Source: Endomicrobiales bacterium (GTDB lineage: Bacteria; Elusimicrobiota; Endomicrobiia; Endomicrobiales; JAFGIL01). From it: a DNA stretch of 64,000 bases. This document shows positions 44,484 through 64,000 of the stretch, piece after piece. The notes under the pieces are model-generated. The model did not search any database. It saw only the letters and a program-made list of their open reading frames with translations, and was not told where the DNA came from. Made by a program: the position numbers and the translations under genes. Numbering within the stretch: the first letter of the stretch is position 1; every line of letters starts with the position of its first letter. The stretch covers positions 31,622 through 95,621 of the forward strand of contig JAFGIL010000072.1 of the NCBI GenBank assembly GCA_016929635.1. Reading direction: 5' to 3'.

Positions 44484-47400
44484 TTATGCGGCAGATTCTA
44501 TGGCCTGCTGACCTGCTATCAGTACCGGATTTTTTAATGTCTTCAGTATTTCCAGATTGGATAACTCCCTGCTTGCATTTAGCCAAAGCAGTGCCAACAA
44601 GTCCTCCAGTGCAAATCCTTCGCTATTTGCCAAGACCTTTTCAAGAAGCTCCTCAACGCTTAAACTCGCATACTCATCAGGCAATTGCGGCAGTGCCGGG
44701 GTATAATTCCCTGATCTTATTAGCTCAGGTGTATCAGAACCAGAGTTAATTGCCTGCAGAATATACTGTAAAAACACCGGTTTATACTTTTCATCCATTA
44801 TTGTACCGGATAAATACGCACTCTCAGCAACTGCCAGGCAAATTCCATGCACAAGATTCATGCACATATGTACGGCTTCCTGTTTTGCTTCTAAATTACT
44901 GCTGTTTTCATATCTTTGTTTATATCTTAACACTGCCAGTTTGAATCTTTCCCTTTCTTTCCGGACATCACTTTCTTTTACATTAGCATAATTGAAGCTA
45001 ATATCCATTAAAGCATCTAATGTTTCAATCATCAATGCCTCGTCCCCTACAAAAGCTTCGCTATCTTCTGCATATTTCAATACTCTCTTAACCACTTGTT
45101 TGGCCGCATTATCAAAGACAGGAACCGGGCCACCTTGGAAGTATCTCTGCCCTTTTGATTGCTCCAGCTTCCTTTTTTCAGCTGGGTCTAACTCCTGAAA
45201 TCCTAAAACATCCAGAACAACTTCCATAAAATCAACAGTTGTTATCCTTGCTTCCCTTATCTCTTCAGACATAGCCAAGTCAGCATCCAAAATAACCAGA
45301 GGAACCTTTTGTTCGGAAGCCTGTCTCAGAATGTTTGACAGTGCATTATTTAAATCCATCCTGGACGCAACATCACTGCCAATAAATGATATCCTAAGGG
45401 AGGTATTTGCTCTCATATCGGTATAAGCTGACTCTGCTGAACTGAGAAACCTTTCATCAACCACAGAGATTCCCAACTTACTTGAGATTTCCATAAATTC
45501 ATCATAATTTTGCAACCTTGCCGGGATAGAGATAGTGAGATAACCTGAAGGCAGGTATCTTGAGTCCTGCGCTTCTTTATAAAATTCCAACAGATTTCTA
45601 TTTAAATCTATAACAGATTCTTGATAGTGCTCTCTAATTGATAGCATCATACCTGAAAACCCAATATAGATCGAACCTTTAATTAATCTTTCAAATGTAT
45701 TAACTGAAGCAGCTTCTGTAACAATATTTGAAGGTATAATACCCGTAACACTCTGATTTTTCTCTATTTGTTTTAAAACCCAGAGTGCACAACTGGCCTT
45801 TGCAATATACGTCTTTTTAAACTGGTCTGCAACTTCCCCATAGGGAACATCAGGCATACCTTTGGCCAGCCGCGTAAGCTCGACAACATACTTTTTCTCA
45901 TCTTCAGTAAAACCATCAAAGTATTTTTCCCCTTGTTTCAGCTGTTTTCTGCTTAAGTTCAGATAATCCTCATTTAAAGCCCCGTCTTTAAACAGGCCGT
46001 CTACAATTGTTGAACCTGCATGGCTGGGCCAGTATTTCAAATCCGTTTCGACAACACCCGGTAAATCCAGTATTGTCTTTATCCTTTTCTCTGCTTTTAA
46101 CTCTGCAAGGCCAAACCTTAAAGCCAAAGGCGACCTTGCCATCATTACAGCAGAACTGCTGCGCTGATGTGTCCTGTTTTCTCCCAGGAACATGCCGATG
46201 TTACTTCTTAAAGCCCCTGCCTGCATAACAAGATTGACTCTTTCTGAAGCCAATATATTTTTATTAGCATCACGCAATAAACTCGTTTCCATTTCAGGAT
46301 CCTGGTCGATTTCCGACACAACCATTGCGTTTGCTAATAATTTCTCAGCATTTGCAACATCAGGAAAGCTTATCTCAACCCCGCCAAACAGCCTTTTTGA
46401 CTGAACTCCGGGTATCATTTCCTGATTATCAATAAAAACAACATCGGGGAATGTCTTTTTATTTCTGAATTTCCTTTTTGGCTGGCCTGAAATAAGCATT
46501 TTGTTGACTTTTTTATCGATAAAACCTCTATACATCACCTGGCACGCAATGAAATACAAAGCCTGGGCTTCCTCGTTCTGATCTTTGAACTCAACTCCCT
46601 GAGGTTTGTCGATCAGTATCATGCCAGTTTTAGGATTTTTCCATACTTGCAACCTTTGAAGTTCGCCATTTACCATTACAACAGGACTTACAGGCCCTTC
46701 TTTCTGGATTTCATAACCACGCCCTACCAATCCTGCTGTCGAATAAGGAGCAAATGCAATACCGTGAGCATTTATTCCCATCTTCTTGAGATGTATTAAA
46801 TCCTGTACCTTCGATTCAATATTATTAGGATTTGAGACTATATGGAAAGTATCCCGGTTAACAGCCTCCGGATAGTTATCCATAAGCCATTTCTCATCCT
46901 GTTCAACAAGCAGCTGCTCTATCATATCCTGCGCCAAATCCTGCGGCTTTGCGGTATATCTCGAAAATCTTTTTACAATGTTATTCCAGAAACCAATAGT
47001 AATAACTCTTTCCTGCGGTAAATCTTTTACAGTATAAACAAAACGAAATTGATCATCTTCCCCGGGACGGTCCTCTTTAGGTTTGGCAGTGATAATATCT
47101 GATAGTTGAGCACTGACTTTGTTTTCGTAAAAATTTACACCTCTTTCATTGTCTTTAAAACAATTCAAATAAACAGTATCTATATTATTTTTTTGAGCAA
47201 ACTTAAAAGCTTTCTTCATTAGTTTAATAGAAATATCTGTTCCGAATGCAGACGGATCTGCAGCTATCAGGTCTATATATAATGAACCTGGATATTCAGG
47301 TGAATCTGAAGGTCTAATACTATAAACGATATATCCTGCAATTAATCCATCCCTAATTTCATAATCGATATAGTACTGCGGATTTTTAACATTCGCCAAT

Positions 47401-50400
47401 CTATCTTTCAAAGCCATCATTATTTTGGCATCACGCTTTTTATGTTCAACCGGCCAATATTTTCTTATACCTTGCGTTTCATTGTAATACGAAATATTTG
47501 AATTTATTTGCCTAATTTGAGAATAAAGAACATCAAAATTTGCCGTCCTGTCCGCTATTCCTATCATCCTTAAAATCCAAGCTGACAAATTAATCGCCAT
47601 ATTAGCAAAAAATCCAGGTATCCAGACCAAGACATTGTGAATTAAAGAATATTCCTTTTCTGATTTAACTGCGCTTTCATCAATAACTACTGAATCCTTC
47701 AAATATTTCTCTTTCATCTCCCTTGCCTGAGCATCCAGTCTTTCTATTTGAGATTCTATATTTCTTAAAAATTCATCCAGTTTTGCAAAATCTCCCTTAG
47801 CTTTATATACCTCATTATATAACTCAACGTAACCAATAATTGCAGCTGAACAAGTTCTGGTCCAGTGGCTTAAATCTCCTTCAAAATCTTTTAAACCTAA
47901 AATTATCATCATTACAAAAAGAGGTGTAAGTGAATCCAACAGTTTATAAGATTTGGTATTAATTACTCCCATACAATAATCAATATTCCCTTGTTCCGCA
48001 CTATCCCCTTTTTGAATTTCCGCCCTGATCCTTTGGCATAATGCTATAATTTCTTCTTTATCAGACGCTACCTTGTCAATGAAACCTTCAAACTCCTGCG
48101 CAAGCCTGGCTCTGGAAATTTCAGGGAAATAAACATTCAGTTTTTCTATATCCATAACTCCTAAATCCCTGTCTTCCTTGAGGCACACACTTAAATGATT
48201 TAAAAAGTACCCTTTAGCTTGCCCGGATATCTCCTTATTTTTAAAGGCAGATTCAAATATATTCAGAGCAATATAATCCGGAATTATACCCTGTTCAAAC
48301 TCTTTTTTAAAGCTATCGAAAGCTTTCATCGGGCTGCCGTATCTCTCATCCAACTCGACCGATGTCTTCCCGGAAATATATGAGCTTAGCTCCTCCCATG
48401 GCCTGTGACCGATAATAGTATCCCATAACGCAGCTCTAAAGAATAAAACAATATCTACAAGATGAAGGACAATGAAATCTAATACTTTGCGTAAAACTCC
48501 CCTTTCTCTCCTAGACATTTTTATTTGTTTCGATATGTGGGATAAATAGAACAATCTATCAAACATAAATGAACGATTTAACAGGTTTGGATTAAGAATA
48601 ACCGTATATTCATCTCCCCGTTTCTCATATCTAACAGGGCTGTACCCCCTTTCCTTAACTACTTTTATCTTCACATCTTCAAGCCCTGAGGCATCAAGCT
48701 TCTTCCTTGCCTCATATTCCAGATACTTTTCTCTCACCGTTATCTTATAATGCGCATTTTTTGATGCCCAGAGGCTGCTGGAAATATAAACAAATATAAA
48801 TAACACAGGAATCAAGAATAGGATTCCAAGAACTAAAATTGATGCTTTGAGTATTAAACCCAGCCCCAAAAGCAGCAGCCCTGCAAACAAAGTTGAGATT
48901 AAGGTATTAACAAGCGTATATTTCTGTGCTTTCTCAACCTCAACAATCCGGTCAGTTTCGGGCGATACTGCTGATTCTTGCTCTTCAATTTTTAACAGTT
49001 CAGGCAGGCCCTGTTTTTCAAGGGTCATATTTGCCCATTTAATTAAGGCAGGATGCCATGTTTTGTGAGCCCACTTATCCTTGCTGTATCTTTCAAACCT
49101 GATTTTATAAAGCAGTGCTTGTGCAGGTGTAACATTAAAATCGAAGTAATCCGGTTTAACGGGCCTGTTATAACGGATATCCCAGTATAGACTTCTTGCT
49201 TCTTCAGGTGTTTCAGCCGAGGCAACAATAGCTTCCAATACTTCCGGGTGTTTATCCAATGCATCAAGCCATTGCCTGAACCTGCTTAATGCCTGCTCAG
49301 GGCTGTCTGAATATTTTATAATCCTTGCTATAAAATCCGTAGTGAAAACAGGAAACGTTTTTTGTATATTCCTTAACGCCTGCTTATGTATATCTCTCTG
49401 ATGAATGCTATAGAAACTCATAATCCTTATACATGTTCCATAATCAGATATATCCGAGGATCCTGCATATAAATCTTCCAGGCCCAGCATCTTAGCAGGT
49501 TTTTTGTCTATTTTAACTGTGTCAGTCTCGCCGTAAGGATAAGGTTTTTCCAGCTCTTGCTTTAACTCATCAGGATCGCTCGGAGGCTCTTCCGGAATCA
49601 CAACACTCTGTTCATCTGTCTGTTTATCATCAGCTTTTCTGCTTAATCTAAGTTTTGGCCACTTTTTTAAGAATTTTACTTGATTATCAATCAGGACATT
49701 GTAATATATGTGCCAGGAAAAGCTGATTACTGCTCCTGCTATTAAAGATGCGACTTTTACCTGCACAAAATAATCACTTACTCCAAATGGCACCCAGATA
49801 ACAACCATTGATGCAATAAATCTTTTGACAACATTACCTAATAAGTGAAATAGCTTTCCAAATGCAGTTTTTTTCCGGTATTCTTCATTCTGTCTGAGAT
49901 TATATATATCAGTTATAATATGTATCAACGCAAAAACACCCAATGCAAGCATCCTTGTTACAGGATCCTGTATAAACGCAAAAACAACACCTAACGCAAT
50001 CGTCTCAAATAACTCGCTCCAGAACGGCACATTAAACAATCTCAGCGTTGTTTCAGGTTTTACTTCTTCATGAGCATCCGATTCCAACTGAATTGCGTCT
50101 TTTGGCAAGGTTATTCTTGCGATTGTTCTATGCTTTTTGCCGCTTTTATCATCCTCTACTTTTTCAGAGATATATTCAAACGTTCCTCCATGAAGTTGCA
50201 CTAACAATTGGCACCAGATAATACCAACACCTTGTGAACTGTAAAGATGATCTCTCCTGCACTCTCCTACAGGAGTATTTGAGACAATCCTGATACTTCC
50301 ATTCTCTCTTTTTCCTATCGTTTCAAGGCCAATCCCATAATCTATAAAATCTATTGTAACATTTTCACCTGCTTGTGATAAGGAAACTTCTATCGGGCCT

Positions 50401-53400
50401 TCATCGTTCAAACGAGTGTAAGCATCGCATGCGTTTTTATATAACTCCCATAATATGAAATCAAAATCTCTGGACATAGTATTCCCAGCTAATCCTTCAT
50501 GAGAATACTGAACCTGTTCATTTTCCAACAACCAGTCAATTCTTCTTGCGGTTACCATTCTTAGCAGTTCATCGTTTTCCGAAGTTATAGAATCCATGTC
50601 GACTTCTGCAGCCCATCTAAAATTCAGGTCCTTTGTTGCTTTCATATATTTCTGTATTCTGTTACGTTGCCATTTATAGTCATCTATATCTACTGATTTC
50701 TTGAAATCAATAGTATAAACAAATCCTTCGGAAGGTGTGCCCTCTGACCGCGTATCACCGGCAGTAAGTATATCATGCACAGGCTCCATTGTTTCGATAC
50801 TCCGCATAGCACGATCCAGATATTCAGGGCCTAATAATTTTCTCCCAACCAGGAAATCAACTATTCTGAAGTATAGAAGCCTTGCGTTTCGCGTAACCTG
50901 AGCATTTCTCGGGTCTATATCAGGATTATCCCAATCCGTGTACGGATAACTAATCCCTAAATTTGCATCATAACTATCTATATTTCTTCCAAGAAATACA
51001 AGCAGCGGAGTATTAATTCTTTGATAAGTAATATCAAAACCAATCATATAATCCATTGTCTCCAATACATATTCAGGACTATGTAATTCATGTAATATAT
51101 GCAGTGCCATCTTCCGTTTTAACTCATCAACTACATCTATTTGGGTATTTGTTGCATCCAGCTCCTCAGCCCACTCCACTAATACAGTGATGAAGGAAAC
51201 CATAGATTCGCCCGAAAATATATGGTCAGTGAAAACAGTCCTTTCCGGCCTGTTTATAATTGAAATTGGGTCTAAATCTAAACCTGAAAGGTATTGTCTA
51301 TATCTTAATACTTGTTCTCTACCGGGATGTTCTTTGTCTTTTTCAACCAACCTTGCATTGCGTTTGTGCCATCTTCCGGAGAATGCCACATATTCGAATC
51401 TGTCTGAATCCCATTCAAGCAACCTTGCCGTCTCTACAATCCATACAGGAGTCCTGCCTATTGCCACAATCCTTTCGGTTGGATATGCCTTTGCTAGTTT
51501 CCTGGATGTATCAACTAATGTTTCCACGGAAGAATCTTCTAATAGAGGGCAACTTACATCTTTTAAAGGCTTGAATGCTTTTCTAAATCTATTTCTGTAT
51601 CTCCGGAGTTTTGCAGGTCCTTTTTTAAGCAGTTTTCCCGCTTTTCTGCGCCATTCCCCCGTTACAAGTTCATCAATTAACAGGTTTTTGGATAAACTCT
51701 GAGCTGAATCAACGGTTGAACCCAGCATGCCTTCCGTACTTGCATTTTCCACATAATTCGGCATATCATCCGCAAATGCAACCTCTTCAGGAGTCAAACC
51801 GGTCTCCTGCAATATGTGTGCAAAATACTCCTGATCGCTTTTTGTATGGCCTTCCTGCCAGGAAACAAACTGTCTTTCAAATAATTCTTCAGGATTGCCT
51901 AATGCAGCAGTTAATGCTTCATTAACACTCTGTGTTTCACTCCAATTGCTGCCATCCGTGTGCTGGTCAGAAACAGTTGCCAGTCTGAAATTTCCAGCTA
52001 ATCTATTTAATGCACTTACTGTTCTCCGGTCAGATTTCCATGGTTTCTTGAAAAGATTGGCAAAATCCAGCGGCGTCAATCTTATAGGTATATCTCTGCC
52101 GGCCAAATAACTATTAAACAAATCCACATAGGCATCAAAAGAAACTTCAGAATCGCCTTCTTTATTCCTTCTGTATTCTATGCCACTTCCGTTTCTAAAT
52201 TTAGTATAGATATCCAGGAGTTCAGACTCAGATGTATATTCTGCAAACCCCAACTCATTAAAATACTTTTTAAATCTTGCTCCAGCAGCATGTAAGTCCG
52301 GCTGTATAACAACTCCCCCCACATCTAATAATACTGCCTTTACACCATCCAGCCTTTTAATATAAAACTCAGCCAGTTCTCTGGCTCTTTCATATTCCTG
52401 CTGATTTTTAGGCGATTCCAGGACTTCCAAAATAGAATCTGCAAAATCAGGGAATGAACGCAGCTTTATCATATCAACTTTATCCTGCATTGACTCAAGA
52501 TTCGCAGGAATTATTTCTAAAACCCGCTTTAAAACTTTAACATCTTTAGTTTTTAAAAATAAATTAGTATAACCAAAAATCGGAGTAAAGGGAGTTCTTC
52601 CCCAATGAATAAACAACAATTTAAAATATTCTAATTTATTACTTAAAGCAACTACTTCTTCCTCTAATGCAAATAGTAGTTGAACCTGTATGACTATATT
52701 ATCAAAATCTTGGTTGATTATTTCAAAATCTGCATCGTCTTTTCTCTGCAGCTCTTTTTCAATATTTCTGCATAAATCTTCAATGATTTTCTTTGAAGTA
52801 CCTATTTGAGCTGAAAATTCATTGAATTTAACCAGTAATCCTCTTGCTTTATTTTTGGATAACATATCTGATAAAAACCGTGTTGAATGCAGTATTTGGT
52901 TGCCATAAGCAATAAATTCAAGAGCTGTCCAGCGGTGGGTATTTTCGTGATACTGAATAATGCTTCTTCTTAGGTAATCCGGAAGGAATGAAAACGCTAA
53001 GTAATCTATATAAATTATACCGTCTTTAGCGGCTGCTATATCCGGCCTTGCTATTTCCAACTCATCAATTGTTATTTCTACTTCTTCAAACTTTAAACCT
53101 TTGCAATTTTCTTCAAGCCATGCTTTTACTTCTTCCTCTCTCACTCTTTTAATAGGGCCGGCCCTTATTTTATTAGCTTCCATTTGCGCCTGATGAATCA
53201 ACTGTTTCTGATTTTTCATTAACAAGATGCCTGTAAACGGTGCTAATAGTACAGAACCTGCTTCCAGTATTGCAACGAATACTCCTAAAATCCCTTGGGG
53301 TTTCTGTTTAACTGAACGTGAAATAATATATAATGCACCGCCGGATATTATGGTTACTCCTACCGCTATAGAGACTGCCCAAATTAAAGCTGGCAGATTA

Positions 53401-56400: not shown

Positions 56401-59400
56401 AAACTCCACTCTACTGCTTGATAATAAGAATCATCTCTTTTACTTCTTCTTTCTTGTTCTTTTTCAACTTCTTCCCTAAACTCATTAACTTCAAATGCCA
56501 GAGACCTAAAACGGGTTTCTTTCATTTCAGGAAAAATAGATGCAAAAAATCCATCTGTTTCTTCTAATAAGTCTCTTGAAACAAATCCATAACCAGCACC
56601 TATATCTGCAACCACAAACTCAGCTAAAGAATTTGATTCCTGTGCTAAATCAACAGTATCAGAATGGGTAAAGGAAAATCCATGTAGTTCCTGTATACTT
56701 TCATATGCACCACCAAGGTACCTACTATTTAATCTTCTTCTCCGTTTCATTCCTACTGCTTTTGCAGAGTACTCACTTATTTGAGTCTTTAATCCCTCCC
56801 TTGTAAGACCACTAAAAATGATTTCCTCACTATGTAAATCAGACTGTGGTTCTGGTTTTTCTTCGTCAGGTTCTATAGGTGCAACTTCTTGAGGTATATC
56901 TGGCTCAACAGATGCTTCAGGTTTTACTTCCGACTTATAGTCAACAGTGTTTATACTTTGTGGATATGAGGTTTTTGAGATTGCTATTGAAACCAGTATG
57001 ATAAAGACAATAGTGCCAACCAAACAAACAATAACGTCCATCCAGTCAAAAGTGCCTGTTAATCCAAATTTCCCTTCCAATACCTCATGCCCGGAAATAC
57101 TTAACGCGTTAAATAGTGCAGCCCATATAAATCCGTACTTCAATGATTTCTGATACTCAGTGTTTTTACCAGAAAATATATATTTTTGTAGAATGGGAAT
57201 TACAAACCTGATACCCAGTGTCGCAACGATAAATGAAAACAGCGGATTTAGGAGAACAAAATGTGTATACAATATTACATATGCAAAACTAATCGCAACT
57301 GCTAAAGAAGCAATCATCTTAGTAACTGTAAATGCTTTTGAGATATTTTTTTCTTTTCTTGAAGTAGGTTGTTCTATCTTATAACTGCTGAATAATGCAT
57401 AGTTCGCACAGAGTATTGCAGGTATAATCAAAGCGTCATTAAGATACCAACGTATATATATACCCAATCTGCCTTGGGTTGAGGATATCAGCATCGACCT
57501 TACAATTACCTCTCCAACAGCAGTCAGTTTTATTGCGGAAAATAAATGCAAGATGTAACCCCAAAGATAAGTAGCAAAACCTGTATAAAATAGTATTGCT
57601 GGAATAATAAGAGATATGCATACAAGCAAATATCGTTTCAAATTGCGATTTATTAATGGAGGTTTCTTTTCTTTTACATCTCCAGACTGTGTTGTGTCAA
57701 TTCCTTCCTGATCATAATCAGCTTTTACCAGTGATTTTGAAAACCTGTCTCTAAAATATAGCCCAATAGAAACAGGACTTAGAGGTGCAATGATAAAAGA
57801 ATATATAACGATTATTATCCAACTTCCCAGAATAAGCTGTTTAGCTTGGTCACTTCCTATCATTTCTGCAAATACATTAATGAATCTTGGATAATAATCG
57901 GAAAAACCTAGAAAAAACGTAACATAGGATGCCGAAAGTATTACCAATACCAATACTATCCGTACTAATGTTGGAATATATCTGTCATATACCAAACCTA
58001 TTCTTTCTTTACCTGTTTTTGGAAATACTCTGGCTATCAATGATACTATGGGAGTTCTAAACCAGCCAACAATATCTTCAAAATATCGTGTGTCCAATGA
58101 ACCCGGCTTACTTAAAGAAGCATCAGCCTTTAACGAATCATAATCTCTACCTTGTATGAATTTCTTAATAATTGTCACAACAGTATTTATCCCCATATGC
58201 AGCCATACAGCAAGTGGCGACAGGGGTGAGAGTTTAAAAATTATTCCCGTAAAACCTATTAATGCAGGAAAAATCATATTAAGGCTTGGCGGTGCAATCT
58301 TCTTTCCGGGTTTTACAAAATCTATGGCGTAATCCAATAAATGAAGAGCAATAAAAAGCACCCAAGCAATTATTACATTTCCGCCGAAAAATGTATTGGC
58401 GATTACAGTAACTAAAATATTTTCAATAAACGGCGCTACTATTACATCATAAACACTGTTAAAGCTCTCCTGTCTGACTTCCGGGAAAATTCTTGAAAAT
58501 ACACCCCACATAATGGCTCTCAACCAGTTCCAGACACCCCCTCTATAAGTTTTGCCTTCCGCTGGTGCAGCGAATCTATCATCTGCCTTTTCTATAGTAA
58601 AGATAAAATCACCGCACTTGCTAATAAATCTATAGAAACTGCCGAATGTTTCCTGAATTTGTTCTTCATCTAATATATCAACTTCGCCTCTTTGCCATCT
58701 TACAATATATTCCAACACTTTAGCCCGCATTTCCGGATTTTCAGGCAAAAATCCTTTTCTTATGTAAAAGAAAATTGTTTTCCAATCGGTCAACTGATAT
58801 TTCATCACTCTAAACTTTGTAATCCCGTATCTGTTTTTTAATACATTCAACTTCATATAAAAAAGTATCTTCATATGCGGCGATTCAACAAAATTCACGT
58901 TAAGATTATATCCCATTCCCATCCTGGCTTCATCTCTTCTTTCTATATGAAATTGAGTAAATCCATGTGCTACATCTTTATTGCCAACAGTGTAATGTTC
59001 CGGGTCCAGTGAAAGACCGCTAATACTCTCCCACCACTCATACTGGTATTCAACGCCATCAACTCCCAATGCAACTGCATTGTACGTATCGGGGCCGCTC
59101 TTCTCGCTAAGCCGCCCGTCAAGTTCATCAATTTCATTACTACACCTTTGCATAAATTCATCTAAAACTTGCTCATCATATTTTGCTGGTGAAGGCTGCT
59201 CAGAGGCTTCCTGCAGGCTAAAAACTAGATCACCGCAAGTTCCAAGGAAAGTAAAATAATCCCCAAATATCTCTTTTATTTCATCGTATTTTAGTCTATC
59301 CACCGTTCCGGTCTTCCAGAGGCTAAGATAAGTCAATACTTTATCTCTTGCTAAGGGATCAACAGGCATGAATCCTTTCCGGATATAGAAGAAAAAGGTA

Positions 59401-62400
59401 TTCCAATCTTTAAATTGACTGTTTGGCACAATAAATCCTTCAGTACCATATCTGTTTTTTAATACATTAAGCTTCATTTCAAATAGTATCTTCATATGGG
59501 TCGATCCGATATCTTCCATTCCCGGATTATAACCCATTCTTATTAAAGCTCCATCTTCATGTAAATTAGTGAATCCATGAGCTACCATAACATTATCGAC
59601 ATAAAAGAACTCAATAAAATTATTGCGCTCGAGATTAGTTTCCCATCTATAACGGTATTTAACGCCATCTATCTCTAAATCAGCAAAATTAATTATGTCC
59701 AGCTCATAACTGGATATTTTAAGACGTCCATCTAATTCGGCAATCTCGCTTGTCCGCTGTTCTATAAGGCTTCTAACAACTTGATCTTTACGTACTTTAT
59801 CACTCATCAACCAGGAGGCAAAAAGAGGTGTGGTTACAACGTTGAATGCTCTGTGGATTGCTATATTTACTGCTTCTCTGTGGAAAGGTATTAAATACCA
59901 TGCTGCTGCCATTACTGATATGCCTGCTACTCTCAATATGCTCTGTATCGGCCAGAATACTACCCCTAGCCAACCCAATACCGTGGTCGGCTTTGCATAG
60001 TGCCCGATGAAAAAGCCCCATACTCCATACCAGAAATCCCTGCTAAACGGACTGTTTGATAATATATCCGCTATTTCACTATGTTCCACTACAGGCGCAT
60101 AGCTCCAGGATGCCCATACGCGCACCGCGGTGTTTATCCATACTTTCTTGTACCACTTCTCGCTATGATACATCCTTTCCCAGTCCGGTGACTTATAATG
60201 TTCATCCTGCAGGTATCTCTCAAAGGTTGATACCCTCATCAACCCGCCAGCCCCGCCCGGTTTCACCTTTGATGTTTCATCGGATACTGTTGCAGCCCCT
60301 TGCTCAATAACTGCTTCTAAAAAGAAGATAAGCTCATCAAAGCGGTCTGTATATCTACTTAAATCACTAATTCGCCTTTGTACATTATCATTTTCTCGAA
60401 TCAATTGAGTTGCTATCGTTATAATTCCAATTCTATTACTAACATAATGTTTTAATGAACTTATAACATTTGGATTGTAGTATATAGACCTGAATATTTC
60501 ATCTATTCCTGCAATCTCAGGTAAAATATCTGCATATCTGATAGAATACTTTTTTCTTGATTCTGCAATAATTTCTTCTATTAAATGTATATACTCTTGT
60601 TTTTTTGCTTTTATAAATGTTGTTAGGGCTTTTAACTGATCAATAGAAACATCCCTTAATATATCATCAATATCCATTTGAGATATCACTCCTGTTGCGT
60701 TACTATATAAGACGGCAGGTTTTTTCTTAACAAAAGCTAATAATCCCACATTAACATTGCTAGAATCAACCTCTATGTCCGGCCTCGTTTTTGCAAATCT
60801 TGCAGCTATGTCCCTAAGTTTTTCTTCATTAAAAGCACCCTCCTCTATATGAGGTGTAATCGACGATAAATCTGCAACACCTTCATCAAATGGAACTGAT
60901 ATCATAACGCCATGGTTACATGCTTCAAGCCAGGTTTCAATATATCTAGCTATACCATCAAAGGTTTCAATCCCTTCCAGGTGTTCCAGAACATGGTTCA
61001 GTACTATAAAATCAGCAGGTGAACCGAAACTGTTAATTGAAAAAATTTTCAAATCATCGCTTGAATTTATACTTTCCGGATTTGCAGTTATAAATTTTAT
61101 ATTATCAGCCTCTGGAGCATATGACTTTGCACCATACTCTATTATGTCTTCCTGTACATCAGTCCCAAGTAATCTTGCAGATTCGATGCTTTTATCTGCA
61201 CTGAATATAAAAGATCCTAAACCGGTCCCTAAATCATGAATTATAGGTCTTTCCAAGCCTCTCTGCATAGAAATCTTTTGAATCATTTCTATTTCACGAT
61301 GGTATAACCAACCAAAGTGAGCTGTATGCAAGTAATTGTCAGAATTTAGAAGATTTTTACTTGGGTCATATACATCTCCATGTCTATATCTTCCAATTGT
61401 TTCATCAAAAACCTTTTGTGTCTGTCTGGTAACTATTCCCAACCTTTCCCCATGAGTTATCCGGCCTGCAGAAAACCTTTCCACTGCCTGTACAAGCCTT
61501 ACAATATTTACATTTAATTCTTTATTGAAAAAATACTCATTTAACTCTTTACGCCTATACCAAAAATGATCTTTCTGCAAATTATCACCAAATTTTGGAA
61601 TGATAAGGAATACAGTTTTGCCTTTTTCAATCATAGTATAGACATCGAACCATTTGCCGTTCAATTCGATTATTCCGCCTCTTCTCTCAATATCCTCACG
61701 TTCCTTATCATATGCGAAATAAAAGCCTTCCATTTCATCACGGTTTTTATAAATGTCATCAAAATCGCTCCATTTAACTATTGCCGCCTGGAATGAATCA
61801 ATCCTACCTTTTGAACTAAGCAGCAGTCTGTCTATCCACTCTTTCAACCCGCGTTTAGCAGCTGAAAGTGCCACGTATTTGTCTACATATACCATTACAC
61901 TGGGATGTTTTTGAAGTGCTGTTGAAGGAATTGATGGGGTTACAGGCCCATACAATGTGTCGCTTAAAACTTTGCCAAAAGCCTGGCGGTCGGTCTGGCT
62001 TCTTTTTTCACAGGCAAGATTCCATAAAATATGCTGTGCGCTTAAAATTGTACCTATTCCCATGGTCAAAGCCTGCACGCGCATATCTGAAAGATCATCA
62101 TAGAAGCGAGAGTTATCCAAAATTGTTGTTACAGCCAAATCTACCACATGAGTTTTAGATTCCAGAAGATTCGTCTCATTTGCTAAATTTAAGTTATGTC
62201 TGGAGAATCGCTCATTTATGCCAATTATTCTTTCCGGACCAGTTTTAAAATACTCATCACTTACATAAACTATTAATCTTTGAGCTCGTATTTCATCAGC
62301 CAATCTGTCTATACCAGGTTTTTCCTGGTATTCCTCGCCTTTTTCCTCTGCTCTTCTCCTGAATTCATCTCTTAAGTAATCCTGGATTTTATCTCGTTGT

Positions 62401-63992
62401 CTTTCTCTTGCTTCAGTTAAAGACTGCAATGCCTTTTCATACCGTTCTGCAGGAACTTTCAGAACAAACTCGTTAAAATCGCGCACCTTAGCAAGTGTTT
62501 CAGCATCATTTTGAACAAGCTTCTGAAGAAACTCTTCATCTACCTCAATAGCCGGCTCATTAAATGCCACATGTCCGTTACTGCCAGCCCCTGCAAACTG
62601 CAGGAATATTCCTGTATTTCTTAAGATTTCTTCATACTCTCTGCATTCTCTAGTTAAATCCGGTGCTATCCCGTTCAAAAAGTGAATATTATTGGGGTCA
62701 AAACCTGACTCTTTTATATGCTTAAACACATTTTCCCACATATAGTGGACATAGCTCTGTTCTTCTTGGGTAAGGTCTCCTCCGTATCTTTGCAGGATGT
62801 ACTCACCGTCATATACATGTTCATCCAGATTTGAGGTTTGTACTCTTGACCAATCTACAGCTGCCCTGAATACAGTTGTTAGAGCATTATATATAGGTAT
62901 AGGCGTACTTCCTGTCTGCCAGCCGGTTAAAACAGTTTCATCTGCTCCTAACCTTTCTAATTCCTGATTTATCATAGATACCCATCTCTCTGCTGCTCTA
63001 CGGCCCATTTCATCATGGGTATCTGAGACCGAGATGTCAAAGTTCCCTCTTTCTACTGTGCGGTTTAATACATACTCCATTGCCTCGCTTGGTATAAACC
63101 TTGCCTGGCACACTCTTTGAGCCATGAACTCAGGCAATGCAATACCTAAGAAAAGCACAAAAACTCCAAACCACGTCTTCATCCATCTTACTACCCCTAC
63201 TGTACCGCCAGGTTTATCTTTTGTTTCTCCTGCACCTAACTCCAATGGAATCAAGCCAAGCGCGGGTACAATAATGGCGTTATATATAAAATGAAGGATA
63301 GCACTTATGACAGCTGAACTTAATAAAGACTGGCCTAAATTTTGTATTAATACCTGATTTATTCCTAAAGGAAGGAATGCATAATTGAACGGCAGCCATA
63401 CTACAACTGCCGCTGCTAAAACAAATCCTCCTATAACTCCTGTCATCTTGAGTAAACGCCTAAACAAAGGAGTATCTTCTCTTGAAATATCTATGCATTT
63501 TTTAATTATCTGCGGTATGTGGAGTGCTGCAAAAACTAAGGTTATTGCACCCCATATTAAAGGTGTAGGTGTCAGAATGGAATATACTACTGCAAGACCT
63601 ATTGTCTCTGTAAACGCTGCTGACAATGGATGGCTTATTACCCAGGCCAGCCACTGCCACCATTTGAGAACCCCTCCCTGCCTTGATCTTGTTTTATTTA
63701 TCCAATCATGTAACGGCTGTAAAAGGTTTAATCCCATATCGGATTTTTCGAATCTACCTTCTATCGCAGAACGAAGCTTTGAGGGTTGCCAGAATTTATA
63801 TTGTGTCCAGAATTCTAAAAGCAGGCTCTTGAGATGAAAAATATCACTAATCTGTCCCAGTAATCCATCATAGGTCTTTTCTAGATCAGGTCTCTTAAAT
63901 GGATCGTTCAAAAAATCCTTGCTCAATAATCTGGAATCTTGTTCTGAATAGTATTTAATAAGATCTTCCAGTTTTTCATATAATATTCCCAC
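44484..63992 (-). CDS. Giant multidomain polytopic membrane protein (at least 6502 aa, 5' end probably outside the window)
   Basis: Single uninterrupted reading frame. The first possible start in the window is GTG at 63992, but the frame stays open to the window edge. Many TM segments and numerous enzyme-like domains. Confidence 0.9.
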   Translation of the reverse strand: MGILYEKLEDLIKYYSEQDSRLLSKDFLNDPFKRPDLEKTYDGLLGQISDIFHLKSLLLEFWTQYKFWQPSKLRSAIEGRFEKSDMGLNLLQPLHDWINKTRSRQGGVLKWWQWLAWVISHPLSAAFTETIGLAVVYSILTPTPLIWGAITLVFAALHIPQIIKKCIDISREDTPLFRRLLKMTGVIGGFVLAAAVVVWLPFNYAFLPLGINQVLIQNLGQSLLSSAVISAILHFIYNAIIVPALGLIPLELGAGETKDKPGGTVGVVRWMKTWFGVFVLFLGIALPEFMAQRVCQARFIPSEAMEYVLNRTVERGNFDISVSDTHDEMGRRAAERWVSMINQELERLGADETVLTGWQTGSTPIPIYNALTTVFRAAVDWSRVQTSNLDEHVYDGEYILQRYGGDLTQEEQSYVHYMWENVFKHIKESGFDPNNIHFLNGIAPDLTRECREYEEILRNTGIFLQFAGAGSNGHVAFNEPAIEVDEEFLQKLVQNDAETLAKVRDFNEFVLKVPAERYEKALQSLTEARERQRDKIQDYLRDEFRRRAEEKGEEYQEKPGIDRLADEIRAQRLIVYVSDEYFKTGPERIIGINERFSRHNLNLANETNLLESKTHVVDLAVTTILDNSRFYDDLSDMRVQALTMGIGTILSAQHILWNLACEKRSQTDRQAFGKVLSDTLYGPVTPSIPSTALQKHPSVMVYVDKYVALSAAKRGLKEWIDRLLLSSKGRIDSFQAAIVKWSDFDDIYKNRDEMEGFYFAYDKEREDIERRGGIIELNGKWFDVYTMIEKGKTVFLIIPKFGDNLQKDHFWYRRKELNEYFFNKELNVNIVRLVQAVERFSAGRITHGERLGIVTRQTQKVFDETIGRYRHGDVYDPSKNLLNSDNYLHTAHFGWLYHREIEMIQKISMQRGLERPIIHDLGTGLGSFIFSADKSIESARLLGTDVQEDIIEYGAKSYAPEADNIKFITANPESINSSDDLKIFSINSFGSPADFIVLNHVLEHLEGIETFDGIARYIETWLEACNHGVMISVPFDEGVADLSSITPHIEEGAFNEEKLRDIAARFAKTRPDIEVDSSNVNVGLLAFVKKKPAVLYSNATGVISQMDIDDILRDVSIDQLKALTTFIKAKKQEYIHLIEEIIAESRKKYSIRYADILPEIAGIDEIFRSIYYNPNVISSLKHYVSNRIGIITIATQLIRENDNVQRRISDLSRYTDRFDELIFFLEAVIEQGAATVSDETSKVKPGGAGGLMRVSTFERYLQDEHYKSPDWERMYHSEKWYKKVWINTAVRVWASWSYAPVVEHSEIADILSNSPFSRDFWYGVWGFFIGHYAKPTTVLGWLGVVFWPIQSILRVAGISVMAAAWYLIPFHREAVNIAIHRAFNVVTTPLFASWLMSDKVRKDQVVRSLIEQRTSEIAELDGRLKISSYELDIINFADLEIDGVKYRYRWETNLERNNFIEFFYVDNVMVAHGFTNLHEDGALIRMGYNPGMEDIGSTHMKILFEMKLNVLKNRYGTEGFIVPNSQFKDWNTFFFYIRKGFMPVDPLARDKVLTYLSLWKTGTVDRLKYDEIKEIFGDYFTFLGTCGDLVFSLQEASEQPSPAKYDEQVLDEFMQRCSNEIDELDGRLSEKSGPDTYNAVALGVDGVEYQYEWWESISGLSLDPEHYTVGNKDVAHGFTQFHIERRDEARMGMGYNLNVNFVESPHMKILFYMKLNVLKNRYGITKFRVMKYQLTDWKTIFFYIRKGFLPENPEMRAKVLEYIVRWQRGEVDILDEEQIQETFGSFYRFISKCGDFIFTIEKADDRFAAPAEGKTYRGGVWNWLRAIMWGVFSRIFPEVRQESFNSVYDVIVAPFIENILVTVIANTFFGGNVIIAWVLFIALHLLDYAIDFVKPGKKIAPPSLNMIFPALIGFTGIIFKLSPLSPLAVWLHMGINTVVTIIKKFIQGRDYDSLKADASLSKPGSLDTRYFEDIVGWFRTPIVSLIARVFPKTGKERIGLVYDRYIPTLVRIVLVLVILSASYVTFFLGFSDYYPRFINVFAEMIGSDQAKQLILGSWIIIVIYSFIIAPLSPVSIGLYFRDRFSKSLVKADYDQEGIDTTQSGDVKEKKPPLINRNLKRYLLVCISLIIPAILFYTGFATYLWGYILHLFSAIKLTAVGEVIVRSMLISSTQGRLGIYIRWYLNDALIIPAILCANYALFSSYKIEQPTSRKEKNISKAFTVTKMIASLAVAISFAYVILYTHFVLLNPLFSFIVATLGIRFVIPILQKYIFSGKNTEYQKSLKYGFIWAALFNALSISGHEVLEGKFGLTGTFDWMDVIVCLVGTIVFIILVSIAISKTSYPQSINTVDYKSEVKPEASVEPDIPQEVAPIEPDEEKPEPQSDLHSEEIIFSGLTREGLKTQISEYSAKAVGMKRRRRLNSRYLGGAYESIQELHGFSFTHSDTVDLAQESNSLAEFVVADIGAGYGFVSRDLLEETDGFFASIFPEMKETRFRSLAFEVNEFREEVEKEQERRSKRDDSYYQAVEWSFGETGEDLPYEDETATLALATRSIEYMYDPLRGIEELYRILKVNGKASAVLSLMNEETYAEAMEAFETDLLEDKDQFLGSVYLEGVPIFSEIKRLQQAGYDIRLCVIDNLSHLRWVKTDEGTWRRGEPLMEVTPEIEAEFYEDTFYFNRDHSNYLIIEIRKRAEDPGPLRFNYDIENVENLYHRRYIPRDTATIDVTPVKKPGGAGGLMRLSTFERYLQDEHYKSPDWERMYHSEKWYRKVWINTAVRVWASWSYAPVVEHSEIADIFSNSPFSRDFWYGVWGFFIGHYAKPTTVLGWIGVVFWPIQSVLRVAGISVMAAAWYLIPFHREAVNIAIHRAFNIVTTLLFVSWLMKNKDTQIDTDSRLSQFKQPVLKSFRNISSGITLRVIMSALSVLSPLVAIYTLYYYLSPTSLLYGIAGVQGSIIVMVILSSIFGIRAAIYYGQQAFGIWRASKLVENRDSAEEPSYILRDILNYARPGYYEELVENGIEIRTINEKYVPSRVVRDSGKIFFEINPALFVSLDDELKVQFLQHDRISVWFKQQTQSTEYNFYSLLLKSVFSVLTTIPFAEQVIVSIGEVRGLRIIIQYALHRQGRVLFGTLVGLMLSAILQQYFLYLGISDLVSAAKVGLYAGLAIVFMPLVKQVAFDDWIKKVDERFSGRPNVRMLIVTLVGSLSFYFLYPFHAYVRQFLKLISYKLLTGISAGLEVRVGFPHTTTPNMDELYYMTFTYFFLRWVGNLFDATLGMLIFREGMREVNKENITFKKLIFFSIGIAVTTWSWLLSIPGDYSIVKFQDPYYGLIMPDTITRVLHGDVQTIVAILAIPIFELLVFFAAYQISRFIDILRGVSSPAVPLTEEEKETNLFKRGLIKASKIITTYTKESSSMLKGASLSFIVSTLILSFVAVLLGLGLLFVGNTSFISNYALAAMSVIYLMTLPSLVYLKLSLRKKSKISSTEDEDIEDKFEKVSISGTKKAGAAASVIAGVEAAGAVTLVTVGIIFNLPALIWAVSIAVGVTIISGGALYIISRSVKQKPQGILGVFVAILEAGSVLLAPFTGILLMKNQKQLIHQAQMEANKIRAGPIKRVREEEVKAWLEENCKGLKFEEVEITIDELEIARPDIAAAKDGIIYIDYLAFSFLPDYLRRSIIQYHENTHRWTALEFIAYGNQILHSTRFLSDMLSKNKARGLLVKFNEFSAQIGTSKKIIEDLCRNIEKELQRKDDADFEIINQDFDNIVIQVQLLFALEEEVVALSNKLEYFKLLFIHWGRTPFTPIFGYTNLFLKTKDVKVLKRVLEIIPANLESMQDKVDMIKLRSFPDFADSILEVLESPKNQQEYERARELAEFYIKRLDGVKAVLLDVGGVVIQPDLHAAGARFKKYFNELGFAEYTSESELLDIYTKFRNGSGIEYRRNKEGDSEVSFDAYVDLFNSYLAGRDIPIRLTPLDFANLFKKPWKSDRRTVSALNRLAGNFRLATVSDQHTDGSNWSETQSVNEALTAALGNPEELFERQFVSWQEGHTKSDQEYFAHILQETGLTPEEVAFADDMPNYVENASTEGMLGSTVDSAQSLSKNLLIDELVTGEWRRKAGKLLKKGPAKLRRYRNRFRKAFKPLKDVSCPLLEDSSVETLVDTSRKLAKAYPTERIVAIGRTPVWIVETARLLEWDSDRFEYVAFSGRWHKRNARLVEKDKEHPGREQVLRYRQYLSGLDLDPISIINRPERTVFTDHIFSGESMVSFITVLVEWAEELDATNTQIDVVDELKRKMALHILHELHSPEYVLETMDYMIGFDITYQRINTPLLVFLGRNIDSYDANLGISYPYTDWDNPDIDPRNAQVTRNARLLYFRIVDFLVGRKLLGPEYLDRAMRSIETMEPVHDILTAGDTRSEGTPSEGFVYTIDFKKSVDIDDYKWQRNRIQKYMKATKDLNFRWAAEVDMDSITSENDELLRMVTARRIDWLLENEQVQYSHEGLAGNTMSRDFDFILWELYKNACDAYTRLNDEGPIEVSLSQAGENVTIDFIDYGIGLETIGKRENGSIRIVSNTPVGECRRDHLYSSQGVGIIWCQLLVQLHGGTFEYISEKVEDDKSGKKHRTIARITLPKDAIQLESDAHEEVKPETTLRLFNVPFWSELFETIALGVVFAFIQDPVTRMLALGVFALIHIITDIYNLRQNEEYRKKTAFGKLFHLLGNVVKRFIASMVVIWVPFGVSDYFVQVKVASLIAGAVISFSWHIYYNVLIDNQVKFLKKWPKLRLSRKADDKQTDEQSVVIPEEPPSDPDELKQELEKPYPYGETDTVKIDKKPAKMLGLEDLYAGSSDISDYGTCIRIMSFYSIHQRDIHKQALRNIQKTFPVFTTDFIARIIKYSDSPEQALSRFRQWLDALDKHPEVLEAIVASAETPEEARSLYWDIRYNRPVKPDYFDFNVTPAQALLYKIRFERYSKDKWAHKTWHPALIKWANMTLEKQGLPELLKIEEQESAVSPETDRIVEVEKAQKYTLVNTLISTLFAGLLLLGLGLILKASILVLGILFLIPVLFIFVYISSSLWASKNAHYKITVREKYLEYEARKKLDASGLEDVKIKVVKERGYSPVRYEKRGDEYTVILNPNLLNRSFMFDRLFYLSHISKQIKMSRRERGVLRKVLDFIVLHLVDIVLFFRAALWDTIIGHRPWEELSSYISGKTSVELDERYGSPMKAFDSFKKEFEQGIIPDYIALNIFESAFKNKEISGQAKGYFLNHLSVCLKEDRDLGVMDIEKLNVYFPEISRARLAQEFEGFIDKVASDKEEIIALCQRIRAEIQKGDSAEQGNIDYCMGVINTKSYKLLDSLTPLFVMMIILGLKDFEGDLSHWTRTCSAAIIGYVELYNEVYKAKGDFAKLDEFLRNIESQIERLDAQAREMKEKYLKDSVVIDESAVKSEKEYSLIHNVLVWIPGFFANMAINLSAWILRMIGIADRTANFDVLYSQIRQINSNISYYNETQGIRKYWPVEHKKRDAKIMMALKDRLANVKNPQYYIDYEIRDGLIAGYIVYSIRPSDSPEYPGSLYIDLIAADPSAFGTDISIKLMKKAFKFAQKNNIDTVYLNCFKDNERGVNFYENKVSAQLSDIITAKPKEDRPGEDDQFRFVYTVKDLPQERVITIGFWNNIVKRFSRYTAKPQDLAQDMIEQLLVEQDEKWLMDNYPEAVNRDTFHIVSNPNNIESKVQDLIHLKKMGINAHGIAFAPYSTAGLVGRGYEIQKEGPVSPVVMVNGELQRLQVWKNPKTGMILIDKPQGVEFKDQNEEAQALYFIACQVMYRGFIDKKVNKMLISGQPKRKFRNKKTFPDVVFIDNQEMIPGVQSKRLFGGVEISFPDVANAEKLLANAMVVSEIDQDPEMETSLLRDANKNILASERVNLVMQAGALRSNIGMFLGENRTHQRSSSAVMMARSPLALRFGLAELKAEKRIKTILDLPGVVETDLKYWPSHAGSTIVDGLFKDGALNEDYLNLSRKQLKQGEKYFDGFTEDEKKYVVELTRLAKGMPDVPYGEVADQFKKTYIAKASCALWVLKQIEKNQSVTGIIPSNIVTEAASVNTFERLIKGSIYIGFSGMMLSIREHYQESVIDLNRNLLEFYKEAQDSRYLPSGYLTISIPARLQNYDEFMEISSKLGISVVDERFLSSAESAYTDMRANTSLRISFIGSDVASRMDLNNALSNILRQASEQKVPLVILDADLAMSEEIREARITTVDFMEVVLDVLGFQELDPAEKRKLEQSKGQRYFQGGPVPVFDNAAKQVVKRVLKYAEDSEAFVGDEALMIETLDALMDISFNYANVKESDVRKERERFKLAVLRYKQRYENSSNLEAKQEAVHMCMNLVHGICLAVAESAYLSGTIMDEKYKPVFLQYILQAINSGSDTPELIRSGNYTPALPQLPDEYASLSVEELLEKVLANSEGFALEDLLALLWLNASRELSNLEILKTLKNPVLIAGQQAIESAA
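47100..47385 (-). other. GNAT acetyltransferase-like domain in the giant protein
   Basis: YYIDYEIRDGLIAGYIVYSI ... LYIDLIAADPSAFGTDISIKLMKKAFKFAQKNNIDTVYLNCFKDNERGVNFYENKV. Confidence 0.65.
50100..50490 (-). other. HATPase_c (GHKL ATPase) domain in the giant protein
   Basis: N-box LWELYKNACDAY, G1 IDYGIGL, G2 SSQGVGIIWCQLLVQLHGGTFEY. Confidence 0.75.
51140..51560 (-). other. Phosphoribosyltransferase-like domain in the giant protein
   Basis: RIVAIGRTPVWIVETARLL ... RTVFTDHIFSGESMVSFITVL resembles the PRPP-binding loop of type I PRTases. Confidence 0.45.
51680..52355 (-). other. HAD-superfamily hydrolase domain in the giant protein
   Basis: VKAVLLDVGGVVIQPDL, GHTKSDQEYFAHILQETGLTPEEVAFADDMPNYVENASTEGMLG. 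Confidence 0.75.
52450..52640 (-). other. Degenerate HisKA (dimerisation/phosphoacceptor)-like segment
   Basis: FIHWGRTPFTPIFGYTNLFLKTKDVKVLKRVLEIIPANLESMQDKVDMIK resembles HELRTPLT.I.GY..LL; His codon at 52605..52607. Confidence 0.5.
52840..53150 (-). other. HExxH metallopeptidase-like module in the giant protein
   Basis: IIYIDYLAFSFLPDYLRRSIIQYHENTHRWTALEF; HENTH at 52935..52949. Confidence 0.5.
55343..55803 (-). repeat. 461-bp direct repeat copy 2 (KPGGAGGLM...SWLM membrane module)
   Basis: Same length and near-identical DNA to 59804..60264, same reading frame. Confidence 0.95.
55880..56760 (-). other. SAM-dependent methyltransferase-like domain 2 in the giant protein
   Basis: FVVADIGAGYGFVSRDLLEE ... 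LALATRSIEYMYDPLRGIEELYRILKVNGKASAVLSL. Confidence 0.65.
58570..59795 (-). other. Tandem duplicated GNAT-like domains (about 59195..59795 and 58570..59175)
   Basis: Both share E(I)xELDGRL, VAHGFT, HMKILFxMKLNVLKNRYG, DWxTxFFYIRKGFxP and CGDxxF in order. Confidence 0.7.
59804..60264 (-). repeat. 461-bp direct repeat copy 1 (KPGGAGGLM...SWLM membrane module)
   Basis: Translates to 153 aa differing from 55343..55803 at 8 positions by manual alignment. Confidence 0.95.
60715..61320 (-). other. SAM-dependent methyltransferase-like domain 1 in the giant protein
   Basis: PIIHDLGTGLGSFIFSADKSIESARLLGTDVQEDIIEYG ... ADFIVLNHVLEHLEG. Confidence 0.7.
61870..63070 (-). other. NagB-like (glucosamine-6-phosphate deaminase-type) domain inside the giant protein
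   Basis: TGSTPIPIYNAL, NLDEHVYDGE, FLQFAGAGSNGHVAFNEPA, ALTMGIGTIL, HPSVMVYVDKY occur in NagB order. Confidence 0.7.
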
Positions 63993-64000
63993 CCTCTGCA

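Follow-up and report, generated by a model that had tools for sequence, protein, structure and literature searches.

The window analysed here is a 64,000-nucleotide stretch of a metagenome-assembled genome (MAG) of an Endomicrobiales bacterium (GenBank GCA_016929635.1, contig JAFGIL010000072.1, positions 31,622 to 95,621), an assembly of 2.23 Mb in 77 contigs with 90% completeness. Its last third is occupied by a minus-strand open reading frame (ORF) of 6,504 codons, referred to below as the window giant, which very probably belongs, on sequence comparison, to a lineage-specific family of giant Elusimicrobiota proteins. The frame has a stop at its low end and none internally, its first GTG at 63992 would give 6,502 amino acids (aa), and it is still open at 63998, all as the first-pass annotation, made from the window's letters alone, had described it. 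The window edge coincides with the end of the contig (C21) at 95,621, where the 5' end of the gene is cut, and the true start is unrecoverable for that reason.

The frame is not explicable by chance and reads as coding along its length. Base composition predicts approximately 488 stops in it (log10 P = −220), and the other five frames over the same interval hold 224–601; the codon usage of the whole frame correlates with that of neighbouring housekeeping genes at 0.85–0.91, as compared to 0.68–0.76 one base out of frame. On the same strand, 3' of the giant, follow rimP, nusA, infB, a DHH phosphoesterase gene, truB, ribF, an EF-G-type gene, and pnp, an ordinary chromosomal context. The alternative of an assembly chimera, which the first-pass annotation had named, or of a pseudogene read through by luck could draw on the contig's ending within the gene and on a ~470-bp direct repeat of 93% identity inside it, which is accompanied by a tandem ~200-aa repeat. 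Both repeat pairs, however, differ mostly at synonymous sites (ratios of nonsynonymous to synonymous substitution rates, dN/dS, of 0.19 and 0.15), a pattern that speaks for translation rather than for duplication by the assembler. Together with the codon usage, the housekeeping context, and the recurrence of this build among paralogues and relatives from many independent assemblies, this leaves a chimera or pseudogene scarcely credible.

Domains of the window giant

Domain calls were made from Pfam and NCBIfam cut-offs, and module E-values are from profiles built on the family unless Pfam is cited; residue r of the window giant begins at position 63998−3(r−1) (Table 1). A Kyte-Doolittle scan found 30 hydrophobic transmembrane (TM)-like segments, in line with the many TM helices noted at first pass, and the NagB-like, methyltransferase (of which there are two), GNAT, HAD, and HATPase domains named there were also supported, the NagB-like and HAD-like domains under the cut-offs and the others over those of Pfam. 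The HisKA assignment was borne out insofar as a segment was detected, but at a sub-threshold score, and the PRTase motif found no support in Pfam or NCBIfam.

Table 1 Features of the window giant (window positions; residues of the giant in the first column)
Feature	Position	Strand	Evidence
Giant ORF, at least 6,504 codons, 5' cut by contig end	44484..63998	−	Frame and codon usage
CPBP-like (CAAX protease-type) 4-TM module 1, residues 127–252	63243..63620	−	Module hidden Markov model (HMM), E 2e-21; E / FAALH / HFIYN
NagB-like domain, residues 325–712, ~115-aa insertion	61863..63026	−	TIGR00502 E=1.4e-43; PDB 2ri0 7e-23; GAGSNGH
S-adenosylmethionine (SAM) methyltransferase-like domain 1, residues 915–1014	60957..61256	−	PF08242 1.3e-9, above cut-off
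Diverged repeat A, residues 1231–1401	59796..60308	−	Possible degenerate CPBP motifs EHSEI/FFIGH/HRAFN
Tandem GNAT-like pair, residues 1405–1814	58557..59786	−	Units 45% identical; GNAT call by eye
Multi-TM block, residues 1849–2340	56979..58454	−	Hydrophobicity
SAM methyltransferase-like domain 2, residues ~2460–2601	56196..56621	−	PF08241 2.1e-8, above cut-off; motif DIGAGYG
Diverged repeat B, residues 2719–2888	55335..55844	−	88% aa identity to repeat A
Multi-TM block, residues 2920–3588	53235..55241	−	Hydrophobicity
HExxH zincin-like module, residues ~3590–3710, TM helices before	52869..53231	−	HExxH at 3684; homologous modules
HAD-like domain, residues 3886–4081	51756..52343	−	Just under cut-offs
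HATPase_c domain, residues 4513–4633	50100..50462	−	Above Pfam cut-off; N, G1, G2 box-like motifs
CPBP-like 4-TM module 2, residues 4658–4781	49656..50027	−	Module HMM; FETIA / FALIH / HIYYN
TM pair and apparently degenerate HExxH module (copy of that in C16 of the same MAG), residues 5032–5170	48489..48905	−	Sequence comparison
HisKA-like segment, residues 5371–5427	47718..47888	−	E 1e-3, under cut-off
GNAT acetyltransferase domain, residues 5532–5625	47124..47405	−	PF00583 1.3e-7, above cut-off
C-terminal region common to giants C63, C66, and C10 of the same MAG, residues 5679–6420	44739..46964	−	Sequence comparison
C-terminal tail ..QQAIESAA, family-type terminus	44487..44516	−	Tail comparison

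The NagB-like domain scores 149 bits and does not reach the 237-bit NCBIfam cut-off. Active NagB glucosamine-6-phosphate deaminases usually have the active-site motif NDGH, and GAGSNGH stands in its place here, making the activity of the domain doubtful. The HExxH motif that the first-pass annotation had picked out can be upheld as a real module because it recurs in paralogues: counterparts lie in one giant of the same MAG (C63) and, twice, in a giant of another genome (G1_C3), with HExxH kept in all. Nor do the TM blocks look random: two stretches are CPBP-like modules, and repeats A and B represent another module with TM segments, in which E, FxxxH, and HxxxN may survive as remnants. A counterpart of repeat A, 47% identical, lies within a 12,027-aa frame of genome G001.

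A family with fixed ends and variable interiors

A first scan of genome contigs with the C-terminus of the window giant gave no match; a search of the source genome with its C-terminal half returned giant frames on contigs C63 (7,386 aa), C66 (7,846 aa), C16 (7,461 aa), and C10 (at least 3,073 aa). The comparisons drew on the sequence stretches surrounding such matches. Since the N-terminus is off the contig, the membership of the window giant rests on three features: its C-terminal region, which matches N-domain-bearing giants (38% identity to C63 over 250 aa, 25% to C66) and also C10; its AIESAA end, which fits the family tail [LI]xAA/AAG; and the presence of CPBP and HExxH interior modules, which are frequent in the family without being universal. 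Intact relatives show the full build: usually a partner gene directly upstream, a signal peptide followed by a ~560-aa domain (the N-domain), a changeable interior in which CPBP-type 4-TM modules, HExxH modules, and further TM blocks alternate with metabolic or signalling domains, and, in nearly all chains, an [LI]xAA/AAG end. The N-domain, partner, tail, and protease modules were invisible at first pass because the N-terminus is missing and the rest emerges only from comparison.

In the complete giants of the same MAG, the N-terminal ~560 aa are 48–53% identical, opened by a signal-peptide-like MNxKKIIAxLTxxCFIFSFIxSQPLxA and marked by the motifs NIQDLHCHPEVQRN, VYIEGA, and VLITGGFHTxG. An alignment of 17 complete members has invariant columns in the N-domain and at the last residues (L and the final A). 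No Pfam family over its cut-off spans the N-domain. The best sensible Foldseek match of its model is the erythromycin esterase EreC (6xcq; probability 0.47–0.57, E 0.05), with an invariant His/Glu/His pattern as a further likeness; this is a weak lead and no assignment, and no EreC appears among its sequence matches. Searches for a plasmid or phage origin of the N-domain gave no match, and PADLOC gave none to known anti-phage defence proteins.

At the other end, A[AG] closes 29 of the 35 complete N-domain ORFs versus 1 of 434 nearby ORFs, and LxAA closes 22 of the 35 versus 0 of 434. A single conserved C-terminal domain was considered and rejected: the domains before the tail fall into several groups without detectable homology, apart from one weak link (A16–C5), and because the tail is nonetheless common to them it looks like a short signal. 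It may resemble the ssrA degron or the substrates of tail-specific proteases. The one C-terminal domain modelled, from one of these groups, has a TIM-barrel-like body (fold match with E 0.05, suggestive only), a helical end, and a disordered tail (predicted local distance difference test, pLDDT, <50).

The partner is an ORF of 160–220 aa with hydrophobic ends, which the great majority of examined giants have directly upstream, usually within ~100 nt. It ends in an LLPRGxID-type motif in the copies of the source MAG and of G001 and in several others, is fused to the giant in G1_C3, and has no Pfam match above cut-off. An HMM built from the source-MAG and G001 copies matches 40 of the 85 ORFs that end at giant starts and 4 of ~2,200 other nearby ORFs. 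One 4.3-kb contig of the source MAG (G000:C54, L131) holds a partner gene followed by a giant that runs off the contig after its first 1,239 codons. This is possibly the missing start of the window giant or of another truncated giant, although a search for overlap between the contig ends found none. N-domain frames on four other contigs (G000:C2, C14, C19, and C58) are likewise at contig ends or split, so giant genes seem often to break the assembly, and protein counts for this MAG are probably low.

A single-genome search found 14 N-domain frames in the source MAG. Together with the window giant and the likewise truncated C10, they amount to ~58,800 aa, or ~176 kb and ~8% of the assembly, a rough figure because stop-to-stop frames were counted and some fragments may share one gene. 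Across the phylum, the N-domain alignment matches 70 of 342 genomes (41 of the 193 good ones); a genome with the domain usually has several copies, in frames of up to 11,814 aa, the 12,027-aa frame of G001 being a further one; many genomes of genus g7, mostly reduced, are without it. A GTDB-wide scan with one genome per GTDB species yielded 143 relatives, and every one of the best 80 bears the title Elusimicrobia, Endomicrobia, or a named genus of Endomicrobiales. These titles, together with the placement of locus L076 (a contig of G010, Candidatus Ruminimicrobiellum bubulum) in the same order as the source genome, indicate that the lineage is Endomicrobiales and not Omnitrophota, with which the first-pass annotation had drawn its comparison. 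Its remark that the architecture is not a standard one holds relative to known families; within this lineage, the multi-copy family makes it the rule. In the symbiont Candidatus Endomicrobiellum cryptotermitis the giant gene is broken into several frames (L066:11384-14728), most pieces of which are 76–94% identical to intact relatives, with close intact copies at L053 and L054. At L093, L100, L102, and L108, giants occur in tandem: the N-domain giant is directly preceded by a second long frame that also ends in the AA tail.

The interiors vary from one member to the next. Within the source MAG, C63 holds GT5/phosphorylase-like, HEAT, and RpiB domains, C66 TPR, C16 cNMP-binding, M20, and Asp/Glu racemase domains, and C10 methyltransferase, HD, and DUF218; elsewhere, G1_C3 holds adenosine deaminase and a kinase, G1_C14 two DnaJ domains and one NUDIX-like domain, and members from gut bacteria PGM, PGI, PPDK, UDPGP, HD, and CofD. 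The relatives with the window giant's domain order that the first-pass annotation proposed to look for did not turn up, neither in 61 genomes searched with the C-terminal half nor in 85 searched with the N-terminal half; only modules are in common.

Such a lack of a shared order is what would be expected if a tolerant scaffold passively gathered in-frame gene copies into an interior of little function, and the altered NagB motif and the pgi copy beside a PGI-carrying giant point the same way. A standalone pgi adjoins a giant with a second, 45% identical PGI at L076:7648-19798 and in G010, G011, G059, G023, and G019. A general capture of neighbouring genes was rejected: over all flanks, the test yielded only this pgi case, in L076 and its relatives, and a single tandem one, in L032. 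Against a graveyard of domains stand the whole chains of intact relatives, which are under purifying selection, with dN/dS of 0.11–0.37 along their full lengths, interiors included, in eight intact relative pairs, as well as the retention of HExxH and CPBP motifs. We therefore regard passive accumulation as unlikely.

Protease-type modules are strongly enriched among these interiors. HExxH occurs 58 times in the family versus 2.3 expected by shuffling, and CPBP modules are found in 20 family ORFs, of which that of C63 is the one to pass the Pfam cut-off (PF02517). The family's 4-TM module resembles the CPBP/CAAX (Rce1-like) proteases in its EExxxR, FxxxH, and HxxxN motifs, all kept in several copies, gut ones among them; it differs from them in being repeated inside giant chains, and both window copies, while retaining E, FxxxH, and HxxxN, have lost the canonical EExxxR. 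Such enrichment would suit a self-processing polyprotein, in effect an operon without stops, from which the embedded CPBP and HExxH proteases release separate membrane and soluble enzymes, as would the catalytic motifs kept in several enzyme domains (the TASHNP loop of PGM and most active-site motifs of PGI in the L076 giant, and the HATPase boxes of the window giant). Yet the analysis turned up no cleavage sites, many of the modules have a degenerate look, and for some of the enzymes the genome encodes the same function at another place: a standalone PGI gene is present in almost every genome of the order, and several of these genomes carry a second PGI inside a giant. Release of separate enzymes is thus unlikely in our estimate.

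Proposed mechanism and comparison with known systems

The first-pass view of a giant membrane protein that joins intracellular-type enzyme folds was right, and we infer that it functions as an envelope-anchored modular megaprotein. The signal peptide would deliver the chain to Sec, and the TM blocks would anchor it in the inner membrane; the constant N-domain and C-tail would offer shared handles for targeting, for the partner, or for a protease; the protease-like modules may cut or regulate their own chain or neighbouring envelope proteins; the enzyme domains would be binding or catalytic units displayed on the scaffold; and new copies would diversify through in-frame gain, duplication, and decay of modules. 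This sequence of steps is offered tentatively, and we would expect it to need revision. We give about even chances to the full reading, mechanism included, in which the window ORF represents at least the 3' two-thirds of a gene from a multi-copy Elusimicrobiota family of giant envelope proteins. More doubtful is an extension in which a small membrane partner and a Sec-targeted giant form a two-gene unit, a new kind of bacterial system. Its fixed ends (the AA tail being read by a protease or sorting factor) would enclose an evolvable interior that gathers membrane proteases together with functional copies of metabolic and signalling enzymes, and the result would be an enzyme array, bound to the membrane and processing itself, that occupies ~8% of the genome.

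Several observations weigh against the envelope-anchored reading. The N-terminus and partner of the window copy are not on the contig. The signal peptide places the N-domain outside, whereas TM-hairpin flanks rich in lysine and arginine (63 of 73, a count biased by loop length) hint at long soluble loops inside. Some family members have no TM segments beyond the N-domain, and some modules, such as the NagB-like domain with its altered motif and the degenerate HExxH module, look catalytically damaged.

Polymorphic toxins are exported, multi-copy proteins with a constant and a variable part, a C-terminal toxin, and an immunity gene. The giants are like them in export, copy number, and the combination of constant and variable parts. 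They are unlike them in that what varies is the interior, with its metabolic content, instead of a toxin at the C-terminus, and a brief comparison brought up neither an immunity gene nor a toxin domain.

Elusimicrobiota are among the bacterial phyla richest in proteins >5,000 aa, none of which was assigned a COG (PLoS Comput Biol 2024, PMC11573180). That survey concerns the same phylum and does not appear to define a family, whereas the present analysis gives ends, partner, modules, and distribution. The giants of Omnitrophota, such as the 39,678-aa protein of Velamenicoccus archaeovorus, whose function is unknown (PMC10066038), are similarly very long, multi-TM, poorly annotated, and found in many genomes of a candidate-type phylum; they differ, as compared by description and by the titles of the N-domain scan, in belonging to another phylum and in having few domains or adhesion domains. 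As has been proposed for them, the window giant could be a surface adhesin or depolymerase directed at host or prey cells. This would fit the signal peptide, the TM segments, and the rapid change of a family with many copies, and a giant of V. archaeovorus rose in attached cells (PMC10066038). The domains are mostly of intracellular type, however, and no adhesion or glycoside-depolymerase domain was found in the window giant or the scanned family members, except for one weak GH71 match, which makes an adhesin or depolymerase decidedly improbable.

No description of the family was found in the literature searched, which had subscription papers and preprints outside its reach, and provisionally we consider the family previously unnamed and its conserved ends, partner, and protease modules newly described. 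With it, a hitherto anonymous group of huge proteins becomes a family that can be defined by testable parts, namely one N-domain, one partner, one C-tail, and recurring protease modules. Ruminant and termite gut symbionts are among the members of the phylum, and with the family's domain models, annotation could be extended to many thousands of residues in each genome that are now 'hypothetical protein'. Should the interior enzymes prove active or the chain prove to be processed, the giants would represent an unusual way to build and evolve multi-enzyme membrane assemblies.

Beside the truncated giant of C10 lies a separate ORF of at least 3,144 aa with highly similar repeats (G000:C10, L022:10567-19998, plus strand). 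Its repeat units look discoidin-type and fibronectin-type, as in a classical adhesin-like giant, a different kind from the family described here.

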